Positions 15,983-24,510 of a stretch of DNA of 64,000 nt are shown here, piece after piece. The notes under the pieces were generated by a model. That model ran no database searches and had not been told where the DNA came from. It saw only the letters and a program-made list of their open reading frames with translations. Position 1 is the first letter of the stretch. Each line of letters opens with the position of its first letter. Both the position numbers and the translations under genes were made by a program. The stretch comes from Bacteroidota bacterium. Lineage in GTDB: Bacteria; Bacteroidota; Bacteroidia; Chitinophagales; Chitinophagaceae. The stretch lies in contig CANGUG010000015.1 in the NCBI GenBank assembly GCA_947457075.1, positions 35,079 through 99,078 on the forward strand, in the 5' to 3' direction.

Positions 15983-17086
15983 TTAATTGAAAGAACGAAT
16001 ATTGTAAATGTAATTTTTCAAATTACTGATTTGCTTTTTTCGATCATTTTTCCCAATAGATTTTTTTGCAATTTTTATGGTATTTTCTTTGGAGGCCGCT
16101 TCAATTAGATCAAATATTTTTGATGACTTAATCGCAAATGCAACACCCTCTGCTTGTTTTTGACGTGTATTAATGATGCCAATAAGCTCGGCATTATCAT
16201 TAAATACAGGCGCTCCTGAATAACCAGGGTTAGCGCTAATTTGTATTTGATAAGCATTGCTATCTCCTTCAAATCCTGATTGAGCACTTAAATACCCCTT
16301 ACCATAAACAATATCATTGTCGTTTCTTGGGTAACCTAAAATATAAATTTCTTCCCCTAATTCGCTTTTCTTATTTCTGATAGAATAAGGAATTGATTTT
16401 GGTTGAACAAAGTCAGCGTCTTCAATTTTTAATAAAGCTAAGTCACTACTTTTATCAGTATAAATAATGGTGGCATTCAATTCCTGTCCAGTGCTACTAA
16501 TTACAATTGCATCATCTCCTTTTAAAACGTGTGCGTTAGTAATGATATAGCCCTTAGTGTCAATTAAAAAACCCGAACCACCACTAATTAATTTTGCATT
16601 TTCAGGAAGTTTGGTTTTCACTTCATTTAATAAGTGACCTTGTACTTTTTGGTTGTTTTTAATAATCTCAATTGCTTTACTAAGCTGCAATACTTGAGAT
16701 CCATTTAAACTCGGAGAGAAATACATTAACATGACTGTGGTAATACCAGCGATAAATCCACCAACAGATGCTGCAATGGCAGTTACTTTTTTGTATTTGG
16801 ACCAAAGTTGAATCACTTTGAATTTGGTGGACTGCTCATTGATTGGAGCCCACTCACCCGCTTCAAATAAAGTATTAAAAGTTATTTCTGTTGTTCTAGT
16901 AAAGTTCTTGCGCTTTGCAAAATTGTCCATTTCATGTAAAAACATGCTATGCTCAACCACCATTTGGTCAATCTCGGGGGTATTTTTACGAATGGACTCA
17001 AATTGAGCAGCCTCAGCAGGGGACATTTCGCCAGCTAAGTATTTTTCAATTGCTTCTAATAATTGTATATCGTCCATTGTTGTCAT
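15983..17086 (-). CDS. Single-pass membrane trypsin-like (HtrA/S1C-type) serine protease with a cytoplasmic, anti-sigma-like N-terminus
   Basis: 367 aa; ~100 aa N-terminal cytosolic region, one TM (VTAIAASVGGFIAGITTVMLMYF), protease domain with H (TNAHVLKG), D (SSDLALLK) and S (NPGYSGAPVF). Confidence 0.8.
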   Translation of the reverse strand: MTTMDDIQLLEAIEKYLAGEMSPAEAAQFESIRKNTPEIDQMVVEHSMFLHEMDNFAKRKNFTRTTEITFNTLFEAGEWAPINEQSTKFKVIQLWSKYKKVTAIAASVGGFIAGITTVMLMYFSPSLNGSQVLQLSKAIEIIKNNQKVQGHLLNEVKTKLPENAKLISGGSGFLIDTKGYIITNAHVLKGDDAIVISSTGQELNATIIYTDKSSDLALLKIEDADFVQPKSIPYSIRNKKSELGEEIYILGYPRNDNDIVYGKGYLSAQSGFEGDSNAYQIQISANPGYSGAPVFNDNAELIGIINTRQKQAEGVAFAIKSSKIFDLIEAASKENTIKIAKKSIGKNDRKKQISNLKNYIYNIRSFN

Positions 17087-17095
17087 TCTATTATT

Positions 17096-17686
17096 TTAAT
17101 CTCCAATATTATACTGCGCAAAAAACAGCTTTTTTAAACGCATCAAACATTTATATTTTTGGTTCTTGGCATTATCTGAATTGGTATATCCAAATTCTGC
17201 CGCTAGGGCTTGCATATCTTTTTTATTCAAATAATATCCTTCCAGCAAACTCTTGCAGGGTTCTCCAAGGCTGTTGAGTGCCCTGTCCATAATTGCAAAA
17301 GCAGCATCCTTTTTTGCGGATTCGTCCATATCCATTTCAAGGGATACAGATTCTTCCTCGGTACTTAATGGGGTACTATACCTTCCCATTTGTTGTAACC
17401 TTTTGAGCCAAAGATGCTTACATATAGAAAAAAGATAGGTTTTTATTTGACAGGTAAGTGAAAATGAGTCAATTTGTACCTTTTCATACAAAGTAATCAT
17501 CGCTTCCTGAAATATATCCCTAGCATCATCCAAAGAGCCGTTATTGTTGGTAACGAAATGCTGAATCATACCAAAATGACTCTTGTAAAGCGTTTCAACC
17601 GCTTTGGAGTCATTGTTTGCGAGCCCCTTTAAAAGGGCTTGTTCGTTGTATTCAGCTTTCAAGATATTAATACTTTGTAAGGTCAA
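17096..17686 (-). CDS. RNA polymerase sigma-70-family (ECF-like) sigma factor
   Basis: 196 aa; region 2 'DARDIFQEAMITLYEKV', region 4 'LGEPCKSLLEGYYLNKKDMQALAAEFGYTNSDNAKNQKYKCLMRLKKL'; the listed start is TTG and overlaps a -7 box, so the true start may be downstream. Confidence 0.85.
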   Translation of the reverse strand: MTLQSINILKAEYNEQALLKGLANNDSKAVETLYKSHFGMIQHFVTNNNGSLDDARDIFQEAMITLYEKVQIDSFSLTCQIKTYLFSICKHLWLKRLQQMGRYSTPLSTEEESVSLEMDMDESAKKDAAFAIMDRALNSLGEPCKSLLEGYYLNKKDMQALAAEFGYTNSDNAKNQKYKCLMRLKKLFFAQYNIGD

Positions 17687-17801
17687 AAGTAACCCAATTT
17701 GCTTATTTAATTTATTTTTTACATTTTTTGGGGTACTGGGGGTTACCTTTTAGCAGTTTCTGTATTAAAAGTATAAATTAAACAATTAAAAATCTTTCCA
17801 A

Positions 17802-17981
17802 ATGAAAAAAGTATTCGCAATTTTCGCTATCGCTGCATTAGCTGCTTGTGGTGGTGCTTCAACTGAAACTAAGACTGACACTGCTGCTGCAACTGTAGAT
17901 ACTGCTGCTGCAACTGTTGACACTGCTGCTAAAGCTGTAGATACTGCTGCTAAGGCTGTAGATACTGCTGCTAAGAAGTAA
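17802..17981 (+). CDS. Small repetitive Ala-rich lipoprotein (59 aa)
   Basis: Translated by eye: MKKVFAIFAIAALAACGGASTETKTDTAAATVDTAAATVDTAAKAVDTAAKAVDTAAKK*; lipobox LAAC; below the 60-aa cutoff of the supplied ORF track. Confidence 0.85.
   Translation: MKKVFAIFAIAALAACGGASTETKTDTAAATVDTAAATVDTAAKAVDTAAKAVDTAAKK
17877..17981 (+). repeat. Five tandem 21-bp repeats encoding DTAA(A/K)(T/A)V heptads
   Basis: GA(C/T)ACTGCTGCT... units at 17877, 17898, 17919, 17940 and 17961; the last unit includes the stop codon. Confidence 0.9.
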
Positions 17982-17984
17982 TTA

Positions 17985-18110
17985 AACTAAATGGACTATT
18001 GGTCCAGATGGGGGAAACCCTGTCAAAGCTTGCCAACCAGTAGTTATCGAACAATTTTCATATGGCAAGCAATCGTTAAGCCGCCCTGTTTCCACAGGGG
18101 GGCTTTTTTA
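17985..18110 (+). ncRNA. Candidate structured RNA / 3'UTR ending in an intrinsic terminator
   Basis: TGGAC/GTCCA hairpin, GGG-GAAA-CCC hairpin, 8-bp GCTTGCCA (18028-18035)/TGGCAAGC (18063-18070), then AGCCGCCCTGT-TTCC-ACAGGGGGGCT-TTTTTA. Confidence 0.4.
18079..18110 (+). terminator. Intrinsic terminator
   Basis: AGCCGCCCTGT(TTCC)ACAGGGGGGCT, one mismatch, followed by a T-run. Confidence 0.75.
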
Positions 18111-18406
18111 TTTTATATGCATAGGCGCCCGCTTCCACTCGTCTTTCACAAGAAAGGAGTGGTTAACATACAATTGTAAAGGATCAGATCAGCAATTAGT
18201 GATTGGTGGAAAATAATAAAATCATCTCTAAAAGGATAATGTAACTAACACATACAAAAAGGACTTTGCCAACTTCTTTGTTCATAACTAGTATTTTGAA
18301 CAAAATTAAAAAAAAATGGCAGTTGGGCAAAAGTCTGCAATACGAATAATTGTTAGTAAAATGTAAAAAACTTTCTGTTTTTGGCCTTAAATAGGGCATT
18401 TTAGCC

Positions 18407-18414
18407 TATATTTG
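18407..18414 (+). promoter_or_regulatory. Bacteroidota-type -7 box TATATTTG (TAnnTTTG) upstream of the aromatic leader peptide
   Basis: Exact TAnnTTTG match 7 nt before the leader ATG; TTTG at 18380-18383 could serve as the -33 element. Confidence 0.65.
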
Positions 18415-18421
18415 TACTACG

Positions 18422-18505
18422 ATGAAAGCAAATAGCAACTGGTTTTACTTTTTCTTTTATTTCTACTTTAATCAAAGTAGCCGGGTAGTATTTGTAAAAG
18501 CATAA
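18422..18505 (+). CDS. Aromatic leader peptide of the pheA operon attenuator (27 aa)
   Basis: Translated by eye: MKANSNWFYFFFYFYFNQSSRVVFVKA*; ten consecutive aromatic codons at 18440-18469; followed by terminator and pheA. Confidence 0.9.
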   Translation: MKANSNWFYFFFYFYFNQSSRVVFVKA

Positions 18506-18554
18506 ACGAAATAACTAAATATACAATCCCGGCCTAAACAGCCGGGATTTTTTT
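18463..18554 (+). promoter_or_regulatory. Transcription attenuator: 1:2 hairpin, 2:3 antiterminator, 3:4 terminator
   Basis: 1:2 CTACTTT (18463-18469)/AAAGTAG (18474-18480); 2:3 GCCGGG (18480-18485)/CCCGGC (18528-18533) plus TTGTA (18492-18496)/TACAA (18522-18526); 3:4 AATCCCGGC (18525-18533)/GCCGGGATT (18541-18549) with T-run. Confidence 0.88.
18525..18554 (+). terminator. Intrinsic terminator of the attenuator
   Basis: AATCCCGGC-CTAAACA-GCCGGGATT-TTTTT. Confidence 0.9.
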
Positions 18555-18621
18555 ATGTAAAAGCGCTACACAGAGTTTAACTAGCTAGGTGGTTCTGCTA
18601 AAAAAGGGTCAACAAAAAAGG

Positions 18622-19458
18622 ATGAACAAAAAAGTAACAATACAGGGATATGAGGGGAGCTTCCACCAAGTGGCAGCAAGGCAGTTTTATGGCAAAACAG
18701 TAGAAGTAATCACTTGTGATACATTTAGGGAAGTTGTAAAAATAGGGGCAGATCCAAAGCAATCGGATGGTGCGGTGATGGCCATTGAAAATTCCATCGC
18801 AGGAAGTATTTTACCTAATTACAATTTATTGCAAAAAAGTAATTTAAAAGTGATTGGTGAAGTGTACTTATCCATTAGTCAAAACTTAATGGTTAATCGG
18901 GGAGTAAAACTTGCTGATATAAAAGAAGTACATAGTCATCCAATGGCTATATTACAATGCTTGGATTATTTGGAACAACATCATTTTAAATTAGTGGAGT
19001 CCGAGGATACAGCCTTAAGTGCAAAGTTGGTCCATCAACATAAAAGTAAACATATAGCAGCCATTGCAAGTAAATTGGCGGCTCAGTTGTATAATTTAGA
19101 AATTATTGGACCAGATATTCATACACAAAAAAATAATATCACGCGCTTTTTAATCTTGGTGCCAAGCAAATCAAAACAGGAAATCAAGGATGCCAATAAA
19201 GCATCTATCTATTTCCAAACCGATCATTCCAAGGGGATACTTTCCAAAGTATTGGCAAAAATAGCAATGGGTGGTGTGAACTTAAGCAAGTTGCAAAGTA
19301 TGCCTATTCCAGGTAGTACTTTCAAGTATGGATTTTATGCGGATTTGGAATTTGAAAATAATAAACAAATTAAAAAAGTATTGGAAGCGGTAAAGGCCAT
19401 GACCAATAATTTTAAAGTTTTTGGATTGTATAAAAAAGGTAAAGTGGTAAAAGGCTAA
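18622..19458 (+). CDS. pheA: Prephenate dehydratase (with ACT domain)
   Basis: 'VTIQGYEGSFHQVAARQFYG', 'VMAIENSIAGSILPNYNLL', 'NNITRFLILVP', ACT 'GILSKVLAKIAMGGVNLSKLQSMP'; MNKK start at 18622 preferred over 18589. Confidence 0.92.
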   Translation: MNKKVTIQGYEGSFHQVAARQFYGKTVEVITCDTFREVVKIGADPKQSDGAVMAIENSIAGSILPNYNLLQKSNLKVIGEVYLSISQNLMVNRGVKLADIKEVHSHPMAILQCLDYLEQHHFKLVESEDTALSAKLVHQHKSKHIAAIASKLAAQLYNLEIIGPDIHTQKNNITRFLILVPSKSKQEIKDANKASIYFQTDHSKGILSKVLAKIAMGGVNLSKLQSMPIPGSTFKYGFYADLEFENNKQIKKVLEAVKAMTNNFKVFGLYKKGKVVKG

Positions 19459-19460
19459 TC

Positions 19461-20624
19461 ATGAATCTAACATTATCAAATAGATTAGAGGGAATTGGTG
19501 AATATTATTTCGCTACCAAACTGCGTGAAATTGACGAGCTCAATAAAGCAGGGAAGCAAATAGTTAATTTGGGCATTGGAAGCCCCGACTTACCACCACA
19601 TCCATCAGTGCTCGCTACTTTAAATGAAGCAGCAGCAAAGGATAATGTACACGGTTATCAATCCTATAAGGGCGCTCCAGTTTTGAGAGAAGCTATTGCC
19701 GAGTGGTATAAAAAATATTATCAAGTGGATAATATTAATCCAGCAACAGAAGTGCTTCCATTACTCGGGAGCAAGGAAGGGATCATGCATATTTGTATGA
19801 CCTATTTAAATGAAGGTGATCAGGTGTTAATTCCAAATCCTGGTTATCCTACCTACACAAGTGCAGTTAAATTAGCAGGGGGCACTCCGCTATACTATGA
19901 GTTAACTGCCGAAAACAATTGGGCACCTGACTTTGAAAATTTAGAAAAATCAGATTTATCAAAAGTGAAATTGATGTGGGTGAACTATCCGCACATGCCT
20001 ACAGGTCAAATGCCAACTAAAGCACTCTTTGAAAAAATAGTGGCATTTGGTAAGCAGCATCAAATATTAATTTGTCATGACAATCCTTATGCGTTCATCT
20101 TAAATAATAAACCTGAAAGTTTATTATCAGTAGAAGGAGCAAAAGAAGTGGTGATTGAATTAAACTCTTTAAGTAAAAGCCAAAACATGGCAGGTTGGAG
20201 AGTAGGTATGTTGATTGCTGCCGAAGAAAGAGTCAACGAAATATTAAGATTTAAATCCAATATGGATAGTGGAATGTTTTTACCTGTGCAATTAGCAGCG
20301 GCAAAAGCATTAAGCTTAGATAAATCTTGGTATGATTCAGTAAATCAAGTTTATACCGAACGTCGCGAAAAAGTATATGAATTATTAGACACATTAGGTT
20401 GTGCTTATTCAAATCAACAAGTAGGGATGTTTGTTTGGGCTAAAATTCCAGCCACATATAAAGATGGATATGCATTAAGCGATAAGGTGTTGTATGATGC
20501 GAATGTCTTTATTACACCCGGTGGCATTTTTGGTTCGGCAGGTAATAATTACATCCGTGTGAGCTTATGCGGTTCAATGGAGAAATTTAATGAAGCAATT
20601 AAAAGAGTGAAAGCATGCGTTTAG
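19461..20624 (+). CDS. PLP-dependent aminotransferase class I/II (likely aromatic aminotransferase by context)
   Basis: 387 aa; 'INLGIGSPDLPPHPSV'-like start, 'IELNSLSKSQNMAGWRVGM' PLP lysine motif; lies between pheA and tyrA. Confidence 0.88.
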   Translation: MNLTLSNRLEGIGEYYFATKLREIDELNKAGKQIVNLGIGSPDLPPHPSVLATLNEAAAKDNVHGYQSYKGAPVLREAIAEWYKKYYQVDNINPATEVLPLLGSKEGIMHICMTYLNEGDQVLIPNPGYPTYTSAVKLAGGTPLYYELTAENNWAPDFENLEKSDLSKVKLMWVNYPHMPTGQMPTKALFEKIVAFGKQHQILICHDNPYAFILNNKPESLLSVEGAKEVVIELNSLSKSQNMAGWRVGMLIAAEERVNEILRFKSNMDSGMFLPVQLAAAKALSLDKSWYDSVNQVYTERREKVYELLDTLGCAYSNQQVGMFVWAKIPATYKDGYALSDKVLYDANVFITPGGIFGSAGNNYIRVSLCGSMEKFNEAIKRVKACV

Positions 20625-21454
20625 CAGTTATTGGTATTGGTTTAATGGGAGGTTCATTGGCATTGTCTTTGAAAAAGAAAGGTTTTGTGTCCAATGTGAT
20701 TGGCGTGGACAATAATCCCGATCACCAAGCCGAGGCATTGCGATTAGGTATTGTCGATGAGATTAGGTCGTTGGAAGACGCCGTAAAATTATCGGACATT
20801 ATTGCCATTGCAACGCCAGTGAATACTGCTGAAATGTTATTGCCTTTGATTTTAGATTTAGTTGACCAACAAATCGTTTTTGATTTAGGATCCACCAAAG
20901 AAGCAGTTGCGCAGATAGCCAGTGCGCATGCTAAAAAAGGAAGATTTGTTCCTACGCATCCAATGTGGGGAACAGAGTTCAGTGGTCCAAGTGCTGCACA
21001 AAGCGATGCTTTTGAAAATAAAGCAACAGTAATATGCAATATGGAACAAGTGGATGCAGATGCGCTATTAACCATAAAGCGTTTGTATGAAACCTTGGGG
21101 ATGCATATTATTTCCATGAATGCCACCAGTCATGACATTCATGTGGCTTATGTGAGTCATATCTCACATATCACTTCTTTCGCATTGGCCAATACCGTGC
21201 TAGAAAAGGAGAGGGAATCGGATAATATATTTGAGTTAGCGAGTGGTGGTTTTGACAGTACAGTGCGTTTGGCAAAGTCCAATGCAGCAACCTGGGTACC
21301 CATCTTTATGCAAAACAAAGAGAATGTATTAGACGTATTAAATGAGCATATCAGTCAATTGAGAAAGTTCAAATCTTGCTTAGAAAAAGAGAATTTTGAA
21401 TACTTAGCTGAATTGATTGAAAATGCAAATGGGATTAAAAGAATTCTAAAGTAG
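20615..21454 (+). CDS. tyrA: Prephenate dehydrogenase
   Basis: 279 aa; 'AVIGIGLMGGSLALSLKKKG', 'THPMWGTEFSGP', 'HDIHVAYVSHISH'; overlaps the upstream gene by 10 nt. Confidence 0.9.
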   Translation: MRLAVIGIGLMGGSLALSLKKKGFVSNVIGVDNNPDHQAEALRLGIVDEIRSLEDAVKLSDIIAIATPVNTAEMLLPLILDLVDQQIVFDLGSTKEAVAQIASAHAKKGRFVPTHPMWGTEFSGPSAAQSDAFENKATVICNMEQVDADALLTIKRLYETLGMHIISMNATSHDIHVAYVSHISHITSFALANTVLEKERESDNIFELASGGFDSTVRLAKSNAATWVPIFMQNKENVLDVLNEHISQLRKFKSCLEKENFEYLAELIENANGIKRILK

Positions 21455-21486
21455 AATTCTTATTTAAGAAAAGTAAAAACAAAAAA

Positions 21487-23310
21487 ATGAAGAAAAAAGA
21501 AGATATGGAAGTTAAGAATGAATTAATTGAAGCAGTTAAAACAAAAATGACCTTTGCCGAATTAGGGGTGAATGAGCAATTGGTAAAATCAGTTACAGAA
21601 TTGGGATACACACATGCCACTGAAATACAAGAACGTTCTATTCCGGTATTAATTAGCGGAACTAAAGATTTTATTGGATTAGCCCAAACAGGAACGGGTA
21701 AAACGGCTGCTTTTGGTTTACCCTTAATTCAATTAATCAAAACAGCCGATAGACATCCTCAGGCATTAGTAGTTTGTCCTACACGTGAATTGTGTATGCA
21801 AATTGTAAACGAAATTAATTTGTTTAAAAAGCATGTTGCTGGTTTACAAGTTTTAGCCGTTTACGGCGGTACCTCTATAGGAATGCAAATTAGAGATTTG
21901 AAAAGAGGGGTTCAAATTGTGGTGGCTACGCCAGGTCGTTTAATTGACTTAATCGAGCGTAAAGCGATTAACTTAGAGCAAATTGAATATGTTGTATTGG
22001 ACGAGGCCGATGAAATGTTAAACATGGGATTCCAGGACGATATTGAATTTATTTTAAAGAACACACCTAACCGCGAGAGTATTTGGTTATTTAGTGCAAC
22101 AATGCCACCTGAAATTAGAAAAGTGAGCAAGCGTTACATGAAAGAGCCAGTAGAAGTAACCATTGGTAAAGTAAATGCAACCAACAAAAGCATTGACCAC
22201 CAATATTATTTAACCTCGGCGCAACATAGATATGAAACCTTAAAACGTATCATTGATTTTAATCCAGGTATTTATGGTATCATCTTTACACGTACCAAAG
22301 CAGATGCGCAAGAAATTACGCAACGTTTAACGCGTGAAGGTTATGATATTGATGCTTTACATGGTGACTTAACACAAGCACAACGTGATAAAGTAATGGG
22401 TCAATTCAGAGATAAAACTTTGCAATTATTAATTGCAACAGACGTTGCTGCTCGTGGTATTGACGTTAAAGGGATTACCCACGTTATTAACTACGAATTA
22501 CCTGATGATGTGGAAGTATATACACACCGTAGTGGACGTACAGGTCGTGCAGGTAGCCATGGTAATTGTATTTCAATTGTACACTCAAGAGAGTCCTACC
22601 GTTTACGCCAAATTGAAAATATCAATAAATGTACTTTCCATAAATTGGATATCCCAAGTGGTAAGGATGTTTGTAGAAAACAATTTTTCCATTTAATGGA
22701 TAAATTAATGTCAACCGATGTTAACCACGGTGATTATGAAACCTATGTTCCAATGCTAGCTGAAAAGTTTGCAGACATGAGCAAGGAAGAAATTTTGACT
22801 CGTTTTGCGGCTTTAGAGTTTAACCGTTTCTTGAGTTATTATGAAAATGCACAGGACTTAAATATTCGCGCTGCTGAAAAAGGCCGTCGTGATGTAGGTG
22901 GTATGCAGGATCGTAACAGAGAAAGAGGACGTAATGAATACGCTGATCGCCGATCAGGTGGTGACCGTTCTAATGCTAGGACGGATAGTCGTAGTGATCG
23001 CGGAGATGGCCGAGGCCGCTCAGCAAATCGCGCGGCGGCAGGTTCGACGCGTTTATTTGTAAACTTGGGTACCAAAGATGGTTTTTATAAAGCTAGTTTC
23101 TTACAATTTGTCTTAGACATGAGCGACTTGAAAAAAGAAGTGTTGGGTAAAATAGACATGAGAGACATGAATAGCTGGATTGAAATTGAATCAGGTTCTG
23201 CGAAGAAAATGATTAGTGCCTTAGACGGTAAAAGTTATAAAGGCCGTCGTATTCGCATGAATGATGCGGATAGCGGTGGACCAAGAGGTTTTAACAAAAA
23301 CGAAGGATAA
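21487..23310 (+). CDS. DEAD-box RNA helicase with RG-rich linker and DbpA-like C-terminal RNA-binding domain
   Basis: 607 aa; 'AQTGTGKT', 'PTRELCMQ', 'VLDEADEML', 'SATMP', 'HRSGRTGRAG'; C-terminal 'RLFVNLGTKDGFYKASFLQFVLD'. Confidence 0.93.
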   Translation: MKKKEDMEVKNELIEAVKTKMTFAELGVNEQLVKSVTELGYTHATEIQERSIPVLISGTKDFIGLAQTGTGKTAAFGLPLIQLIKTADRHPQALVVCPTRELCMQIVNEINLFKKHVAGLQVLAVYGGTSIGMQIRDLKRGVQIVVATPGRLIDLIERKAINLEQIEYVVLDEADEMLNMGFQDDIEFILKNTPNRESIWLFSATMPPEIRKVSKRYMKEPVEVTIGKVNATNKSIDHQYYLTSAQHRYETLKRIIDFNPGIYGIIFTRTKADAQEITQRLTREGYDIDALHGDLTQAQRDKVMGQFRDKTLQLLIATDVAARGIDVKGITHVINYELPDDVEVYTHRSGRTGRAGSHGNCISIVHSRESYRLRQIENINKCTFHKLDIPSGKDVCRKQFFHLMDKLMSTDVNHGDYETYVPMLAEKFADMSKEEILTRFAALEFNRFLSYYENAQDLNIRAAEKGRRDVGGMQDRNRERGRNEYADRRSGGDRSNARTDSRSDRGDGRGRSANRAAAGSTRLFVNLGTKDGFYKASFLQFVLDMSDLKKEVLGKIDMRDMNSWIEIESGSAKKMISALDGKSYKGRRIRMNDADSGGPRGFNKNEG

Positions 23311-23322
23311 CTGAAATAAATT

Positions 23323-23360
23323 AACGAGTCCTTGATATATTGAATTGAGGGCTCGTTTTA
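23323..23360 (+). terminator. Putative intrinsic terminator after the helicase gene
   Basis: AACGAGTCCT ... AGGGCTCGTT (one G-T wobble) followed by TTTT. Confidence 0.5.
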
Positions 23361-23424
23361 AAATTTGATGTAAAAAAACTCAAACTATCAAACACTAAAT
23401 ACTCAATACTAAAATTGGTTTAAC

Positions 23425-24510
23425 ATGGGAGCTTTAACTGAACAACAACAAAAAGTAAGCGCATTATTAAAAAAAGCGCCATTAATTATATCGGGTCCTT
23501 GTAGTGCAGAAACCGAAGAACAAGTAATGGCAACAGCTAGAGGCTTAGCGGCTACTGGTAAAGTAGATATTATGCGTGCAGGTATCTGGAAGCCAAGAAC
23601 TCGTCCTGGAAGTTTTGAAGGGATTGGTACCAAAGGTTTGCCTTGGTTGCAACAAGCAAAAAAGGAAACGGGTATTCCAGTTGCTGTGGAAGTAGCTACG
23701 GGTAAACAAGTGGAAGATGCTTTACATTTTGATGTGGATGTTTTATGGGTAGGTGCTCGTACGACAGTAAATCCTTTTAGTGTGCAAGAAATTGCAGACG
23801 CTTTAAAGGGAGTGAAAGTCCCTGTGTTAATTAAGAACCCCTTAAACCCCGACTTAGAATTATGGGTAGGGGGAATGGAACGTATCGCGAAAGCGGGTAT
23901 TGAAGATTTGGGATTAATCCATAGAGGATTTAGTTCTTATGGCAATACTGAATTCCGTAATGCACCTATGTGGCATTTGGCCATTGAAATGAAACGTCGT
24001 TTCCCGAATGTTCCTATGATTAATGATCCTTCCCATATTTGTGGAAGAAGAGATATTTTACAATCTGTGGCCCAACAAGCCATTGACCTTGATTTTGATG
24101 GTTTAATTATTGAATCACATGTTGACCCTGACAATGCATGGAGTGATGCGAAACAACAAATTACCCCTGCAGTATTAAAGTCCATGTTGGATAGTATGCA
24201 TTGGAGAAAAGAGACGGTACAAAATGCAGATTTCCAAAGTGCACTAGAGGCAATGCGTCAACAAATTAATCAGTTAGATGACGAGTTATTACAAGTATTA
24301 TCTACTCGTATGAAAGTGGCTCAAAAAATTGGTGAATATAAAAAGAACAATGAAATTACCATTTTGCAAACCAATCGTTGGAATGAAATTTTAGATCGTG
24401 CCGTTGCTAAAGGAAATAAATTAGGATTGAGCGATGAGTTTGTTACTAAATATATGGACGCAGTGCATATGGAAAGTATCAATCAACAAAATAAAGTAAT
24501 GAATAGCTAG
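23425..24510 (+). CDS. Bifunctional 3-deoxy-7-phosphoheptulonate synthase / chorismate mutase type II (C-terminal CM)
   Basis: 361 aa; 'IISGPCSAETEEQV', 'DIMRAGIWKPRTRPGSFEG', 'DPSHICGRRD'; C-terminal 'ALEAMRQQINQLDDELLQVLSTRMKVAQKIGEYKK' chorismate mutase helix. Confidence 0.92.
   Translation: MGALTEQQQKVSALLKKAPLIISGPCSAETEEQVMATARGLAATGKVDIMRAGIWKPRTRPGSFEGIGTKGLPWLQQAKKETGIPVAVEVATGKQVEDALHFDVDVLWVGARTTVNPFSVQEIADALKGVKVPVLIKNPLNPDLELWVGGMERIAKAGIEDLGLIHRGFSSYGNTEFRNAPMWHLAIEMKRRFPNVPMINDPSHICGRRDILQSVAQQAIDLDFDGLIIESHVDPDNAWSDAKQQITPAVLKSMLDSMHWRKETVQNADFQSALEAMRQQINQLDDELLQVLSTRMKVAQKIGEYKKNNEITILQTNRWNEILDRAVAKGNKLGLSDEFVTKYMDAVHMESINQQNKVMNS

Follow-up and report, generated by a model that had tools for sequence, protein, structure and literature searches.

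The best described counterparts of the element considered here are the pheA, trp and his attenuators of E. coli and Salmonella, with which it shares codons for the end product, mutually exclusive 1:2, 2:3 and 3:4 pairings, and a terminator before the first gene. For a long time, Proteobacteria and Actinobacteria were given as the only groups in which leader-peptide attenuation had been demonstrated (PMC2965389). Within Bacteroidota, where it has received only brief mention, the main text of a study on F. psychrophilum reports strong clues for leader peptide attenuation at the structured 5' elements of pheA, hisG and other genes, and describes the pheA element as conserved in other genera of the Flavobacteriaceae without an Rfam hit (Guerin et al. 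2021, PMC9723704). Those elements share with ours the phylum, the target gene pheA and the setting of an amino-acid operon, yet the main text of that study gives no leader sequence or segment model (PMC9723704), and the family treated here belongs to the Chitinophagaceae and has a predicted leaderless arrangement. In the open-licence full-text literature we found nothing more specific than PMC9723704 on such leaders in Bacteroidota. Also comparable are the Bacteroid-trp RNA motif (RF01692; Weinberg et al. 2010, PMC2864571), a predicted cis-regulatory RNA of Bacteroidetes that is related to trp by name, and the leaderless Cys-rich small ORFs of mycobacteria (PMC4633059), which are candidate attenuating upstream ORFs on leaderless transcripts, but which concern another phylum and amino acid and are called speculative in that paper.

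The locus lies in a 64-kb window (the whole stretch of DNA that was analysed, 64,000 nucleotides) from a freshwater Bacteroidota relative. We consider it very probable that the region upstream of pheA works as a ribosome-mediated attenuator of transcription, built like the trp, his and phe leaders and serving pheA, an aminotransferase gene and tyrA, and that its leader gene is almost leaderless. No sequence relation is shown between this leader and those of E. coli and Salmonella, from which it differs in mixing Phe and Tyr in a run of ten codons, in a segment 2 whose core falls within the ORF, at a distance of 22 nt from the stop codon, and in a predicted 5' UTR of 3 nt. No Rfam family reaches its threshold; Phe_leader (RF01859) scores 32.2 bits (E 0.021 in 7 kb) against a gathering threshold of 55, Trp_leader (RF00513) scores 20.1 bits against 41, and RF01692 has no match with E up to 5 across window positions 17000-24000, and none with E up to 1 around trpE and hisG of the same genome. 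The features of the locus, in window coordinates, are as follows.

18380-18383, forward strand: possible -33 element TTTG of the Bacteroidota housekeeping promoter (consensus from PMC7366714, PMC9723704)
18407-18414, forward strand: putative -7 promoter box TATATTTG (consensus TAnnTTTG), conserved in the family loci
18419-18421, forward strand: predicted transcription start and 3-nt 5' UTR, from the position of the box (PMC9723704)
18422-18505, forward strand: leader peptide ORF MKANSNWFYFFFYFYFNQSSRVVFVKA, ATG at 18422 (base-by-base check, conservation)
18428-18451, forward strand: segment 1, arms 18428-18434, 18439-18443 and 18446-18451, pairing with segment 2 (minimum-energy fold, swap test)
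18440-18469, forward strand: putative regulatory codons W F Y F F F Y F Y F (coordinates, conservation)
18474-18495, forward strand: segment 2, within the ORF, core GCCGGG at 18480-18485 (co-variation, folding)
18516-18533, forward strand: segment 3, pairing with segment 2 through the core CCCGGC at 18528-18533 and a second helix at about 18516-18522 (co-variation)
18525-18533, forward strand: the part of segment 3 that is also the 5' arm of the terminator (co-variation)
18541-18554, forward strand: segment 4 (18541-18549) and T-run, a predicted intrinsic terminator with 18525-18533 (sequence, conservation)
18622-19458, forward strand: prephenate dehydratase (pheA), putatively the first controlled gene (NCBIfam E down to 7.7e-58; PDT Pfam over cut-off)
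19461-20624, forward strand: class I aminotransferase (best NCBIfam models LL-diaminopimelate aminotransferase-like, under their cut-offs)
20615-21454, forward strand: prephenate dehydrogenase (tyrA; NF006307, 348.1 bits, over the cut-off of 295)
21487-23310, forward strand: DEAD-box RNA helicase (profile match; spacing)

Judging from gene spacing, the DEAD-box helicase is probably the last gene of the operon, and a stem-loop follows it at about 23326-23356; the gene context suggests that the aminotransferase may be specific for aromatics. In 19 relatives the gene after tyrA encodes a DAHP synthase/chorismate mutase, while the helicase takes that place in the window's Sediminibacterium-like clade. 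Eight of the relatives of the DAHP synthase/chorismate mutase type carry a DEAD-box helicase upstream of pheA. At 17803-17981 of the window there is also a small ORF (MKKVFAIFAIAALAACGG...), lipoprotein-like and with repeated VDTAAKA units, and the region in which it ends has a separate terminator near 18084-18099.

The leader had been proposed in a sequence-only reading of the window, and the ORF from the ATG at 18422, its ten consecutive W/F/Y codons (6 F, 3 Y and 1 W), the GCCGGG and CCCGGC cores and the terminator at 18525-18549 all proved to lie exactly where that reading had put them, the ORF and its run being verified base by base. When both strands of the whole window were scored for aromatic content, 10/10 was reached in just two 450-nt tiles, which overlap and thus fit one single site, the pheA leader run. 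Across the 2.2-Mb genome, however, at least seven consecutive F/Y codons occur in six separate places, and a reversed control pattern is equally frequent, so that the run by itself is weak evidence. The fold of the window sequence alone is only mildly unusual (z -1.5, or -2.7 when started at the predicted transcription start). A chance run of T-rich codons in an AT-rich genome is ruled out by conservation, by the terminator and by co-variation, and given these three the predicted leader is confirmed as an observation beyond chance.

A scan of genome contigs for relatives of pheA returned 80 loci, nearly all Chitinophagaceae or Sediminibacterium-like, and an ATG-started aromatic leader lies upstream of pheA in 76 of 81 loci when the window is included. 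The cultured relatives Sediminibacterium salmoneum and Lacibacter cauensis are among the carriers of the leader. Three of the others (L059, L069 and L022) possess the aromatic run but an ATG start was not found, L022 being cut by the contig end; L037 begins too near the end of its contig; and the pheA of Prolixibacter (L082) is without an aromatic leader in this upstream scan of 81 loci. In a separate sample of the class Bacteroidia, 17 of the 29 further pheA genes are preceded by a leader, taken here as a short ORF in which 7 or more of 10 residues are aromatic; among 750 control stretches from the same loci there is none. A covariance model built from a MAFFT alignment (A1), which captures the terminator helix only and whose class and phylum matches are reliable in strong cases only, matches 44 genomes in a set of 289 from the Bacteroidia and 47 in a phylum sample of 247, four of the latter lying outside the class. 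Among these four, the one that was inspected (L172) has MKQNYKQARYYFYFYFYFFSSPGGYCLF and a stop codon preceding a pheA, while several inspected matches with E above 3e-4 have no leader ORF. The predicted pheA leader switch is conserved across the phylum, occurring in many families.

Immediately before the leader lies a putative promoter box that was absent from the sequence-only account. TAnnTTTG is the housekeeping -7 element of the phylum (PMC9723704, PMC7366714), and in 74 of 76 loci such a box precedes the ATG of the leader by 4-8 nt; as a control, only 4.3% of all ATGs in those loci have one 3-9 nt upstream. The candidate -33 element TTTG, which is weak by itself, is spaced 23 nt from the -7 box. 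In F. psychrophilum the sigmaA -7 box spans -12 to -5 (PMC9723704), and the same placement would set +1 at 18419 in the window, three bases before the AUG. The position of the box therefore predicts a 5' UTR of 0-4 nt and, with it, a leaderless mRNA for the leader peptide. Leaderless mRNAs are a minority in the phylum: in B. thetaiotaomicron 3.7% of 5' UTRs are shorter than 10 nt, and in F. psychrophilum the share of leaderless mRNAs is 5.5% (PMC7366714, PMC9723704). In the other Bacteroidia families sampled, the distance from box to ATG is usually 15-33 nt, with one exception of 4 nt (L157), and the near-leaderless arrangement would consequently be mainly a trait of the Chitinophagaceae. At 18370-18406 of the window and the corresponding place in L003-L016, close relatives show a direct repeat, TTTTAGCCTAT-N-TTTTAGCCTAT, which extends into the -7 box and may be an operator.

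Downstream of the leader, an intrinsic terminator is found 18-38 nt past the stop codon in 73 of 76 loci (the script did not detect one in L050, L060 and L063); in the window it is formed by 18525-18533 and segment 4, GCCGGGATT at 18541-18549, followed by T's, as had been proposed. The core of its 5' arm, CCCGG, could pair equally with a CCGGG in the leader ORF, the core of segment 2, which lies 9-12 nt past the last aromatic codon in 69 of 73 loci. In each of their three roles the cores of segments 2, 3 and 4 are complementary. Pairs were counted on anchored segments, since the MAFFT alignment shifts segment 2 by one base in places; on these, both pairings are kept at the four central core positions in 30 of 30 representatives. 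The mean energy of cognate 2:3 pairing is -21.1 kcal/mol, compared with -17.6 for segments exchanged among loci, and none of 20000 permutations does as well, although the window's own 2:3 is slightly weaker than its swap mean (-14.7 versus -15.5). Swap and permutation tests of this kind do not fully remove shared ancestry. Support independent of that concern comes from compensatory triples: in L068 three core positions are replaced in segments 2, 3 and 4 together (GAGGAT / ATCCTC / GAGGAT), and in L072 one triple at a flanking position changes from G-C-G to A-T-A.

The antiterminator had been described as the GCCGGG/CCCGGC core reinforced by TTGTA with TACAA. The core co-varies and stands, whereas L031 reads CATACAG at the place of the TACAA that the reinforcement would need. 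A better position for the second antiterminator helix is about 18488-18494 with 18516-18522, where the pairing co-varies as well (-6.5 kcal/mol, and -5.0 for swapped segments; none of 20000 permutations is as good in the full set, and 18 are in a subset with fewer close relatives). A 1:2 pairing also co-varies, though elsewhere than was first thought. The sequence-only reading had paired 18463-18469 with 18474-18480; that hairpin exists as sequence, but it shares one base only with the GCCGGG core and so would not block 2:3, and it is rejected as a functional protector of segment 2. The segment 1 that co-varies is in the first codons, with partners at 18474-18484 and 18489-18495. Folding from the predicted start gives GCAAAUA (18428-18434) with UAUUUGU (18489-18495), CUGGU with GCCGG and UACUUU with AAAGUA, alongside the terminator. 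In 28 of 30 representatives cognate 1:2 pairing is stronger than the mean after swapping (on average -12.9 versus -10.7), and none of 20000 permutations equals it; in a subset of 18 loci, chosen to hold fewer close relatives, a single permutation of 20000 does.

As is characteristic of an attenuator, the locus thus combines, at the level of sequence, a short ORF with clustered codons for the end products, a terminator between the leader stop and the first gene, an antiterminator that excludes it by sharing its 5' arm, and a 1:2 helix that flanks or overlaps the aromatic run, where a stalled ribosome is predicted to disrupt it. The attenuator reading is supported by comparison with orthologous pheA upstream regions, the check suggested along with the sequence-only reading, in which the aromatic codons and the stems are both conserved and co-varying. 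We infer the following sequence of events. RNA polymerase would start at about 18419, so that a ribosome could load on the 5'-end AUG without a Shine-Dalgarno site. Where charged Phe or Tyr tRNA is scarce, the ribosome would stall in codons 7-16, disrupting 1:2 and freeing segment 2, which would pair with segment 3 before segment 4 is synthesised, and transcription would go on. With charged aromatic tRNAs the ribosome would reach the stop codon and mask segment 2, allowing 3:4 to form and transcription to terminate before pheA. If there were no translation, 1:2 would hold segment 2 and 3:4 would again be allowed.

The geometry and relative stabilities agree with this scheme. If a ribosome is assumed to cover 12 nt past the first base of the codon in its A site, a stall on the last aromatic codon would put the segment 2 core 0-4 nt beyond the ribosome's edge in 29 of 30 representatives, and 8 nt beyond it in the remaining one. 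Folding with a stalled ribosome and segment 4 absent yields 2:3 in 30 of 30 representatives, and with the ribosome at the stop codon 3:4 in 30 of 30, while the full free RNA gives 3:4 in 28 of 30. Once segment 4 is present, equilibrium favours 3:4 in spite of the stall in 24 of 30 representatives, and 2:3 in 6 of 30, which implies that antitermination would have to rely on the order of synthesis, as a kinetic switch. Kinetic switching is usual for attenuators.

Which amino acids are sensed is best read from the leaders and the genes together. All 39 distinct leader peptides contain at least 3 Phe and at least 2 Tyr, and the genes are pheA, the aminotransferase gene and tyrA, making sensing of Phe plus Tyr the best reading. 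Of the control by Phe, Tyr and possibly Trp that had been suggested, the Phe and Tyr part would therefore hold for all leaders; sensing of Trp is doubtful and Trp appears optional, 18 of the 39 peptides being without it. It is unlikely, in our estimate, that the same attenuator responds in practice to Phe only, with Tyr and Trp codons as tolerated one-mutation substitutions. Phe does outnumber any other residue in each of the leaders, with a share of 22% where Tyr has 12%, and F and Y swap between lineages (e.g. WFYFFFYFYF and FFFFYYFFFF), but at least 2 Tyr are kept in 39 of 39 distinct leaders and 3 or 4 in 35, and the operon makes both Phe and Tyr through pheA and tyrA.

Within the close clade the peptide is nearly invariant, and trans-acting leader peptides are reported (PMC7298713), so that an action of the peptide in trans, like that of peTrpL of Sinorhizobium, might be imagined besides or instead of read-through sensing. 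We regard this as highly improbable. The conserved N- and C-terminal parts correspond to segments 1 and 2, which co-vary as RNA, and outside the clade the termini vary freely with pairing kept; the peptide start (KAN or KAY) and tail (VFVKA or LLLK) would be conserved because both are RNA arms. Moreover, synonymous F/Y codons are near-fixed in the close clade (98.7% identity at 18443-18469, against 73% for conserved F/Y codons of pheA), indicating that the RNA or the codons, rather than the peptide, are under selection; only part of this F/Y run falls in a predicted helix. Barely credible is a role of the leader ORF in boosting pheA by translational coupling or reinitiation, with the hairpin as a mild pause or mRNA stabiliser. 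Reinitiation has been put forward as general at leader genes (PMC4833913), but in the window the leader stop is 117 nt from the pheA ATG, with a strong hairpin and T-run between them, the distance from terminator to pheA ranges from 7 to 180 nt across relatives, and co-varying, mutually exclusive helices would be unneeded. Returning to attenuation by Phe and Tyr sensing, we tentatively suggest, while thinking it rather doubtful, that the Chitinophagaceae possess a distinct design of their own, in which a leaderless sensor gene loads ribosomes at the 5' end of the nascent RNA, the Phe and Tyr signals are pooled, and codon choice is selected to set the response.

Leaders for other amino acids are found in the same genome, on contig C15. 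One precedes trpE (MIKLNNMWWWHTNSVGVL, with WWW; L122:1285-1341) and has a terminator AAACCCCGGCATATCATGTCGGGGTTT; its ATG is 17 nt past a TAAATTTG box, and hence not leaderless. Another lies directly upstream of hisG (MNLNNHTHHHLLSKG, with HTHHH; L123:1224-1271), also with a terminator, and its ATG is 4 nt past a TAAATTTG box. Inspection of leuA and thrA of the genome revealed no leaders. In another Bacteroidia genome (L159) the pheA leader model found a Thr/Ile leader, MIFNTSIITTIIITTGINQRG, before aspartokinase-homoserine dehydrogenase, and in L163 and L170 an aromatic leader (MLITAAIYFTFFYFYFRSQSRIGAVYCLAKN and a close variant) precedes DAHP synthase instead of pheA.

The proposed mechanism is classical and barely documented in Bacteroidota, its predicted leaderless start and mixed-codon sensing being the distinguishing traits. 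One Bacteroidota element is here resolved into four co-varying RNA segments, and it occurs in many families of the phylum, which also has leaders of the Trp, His and Thr/Ile kinds. Should this be confirmed, coupling of transcription to translation would underlie amino-acid control in a phylum that is prominent in the environment and the gut, and the near-leaderless start without a Shine-Dalgarno site would offer a clean system for testing how early coupling is set up.
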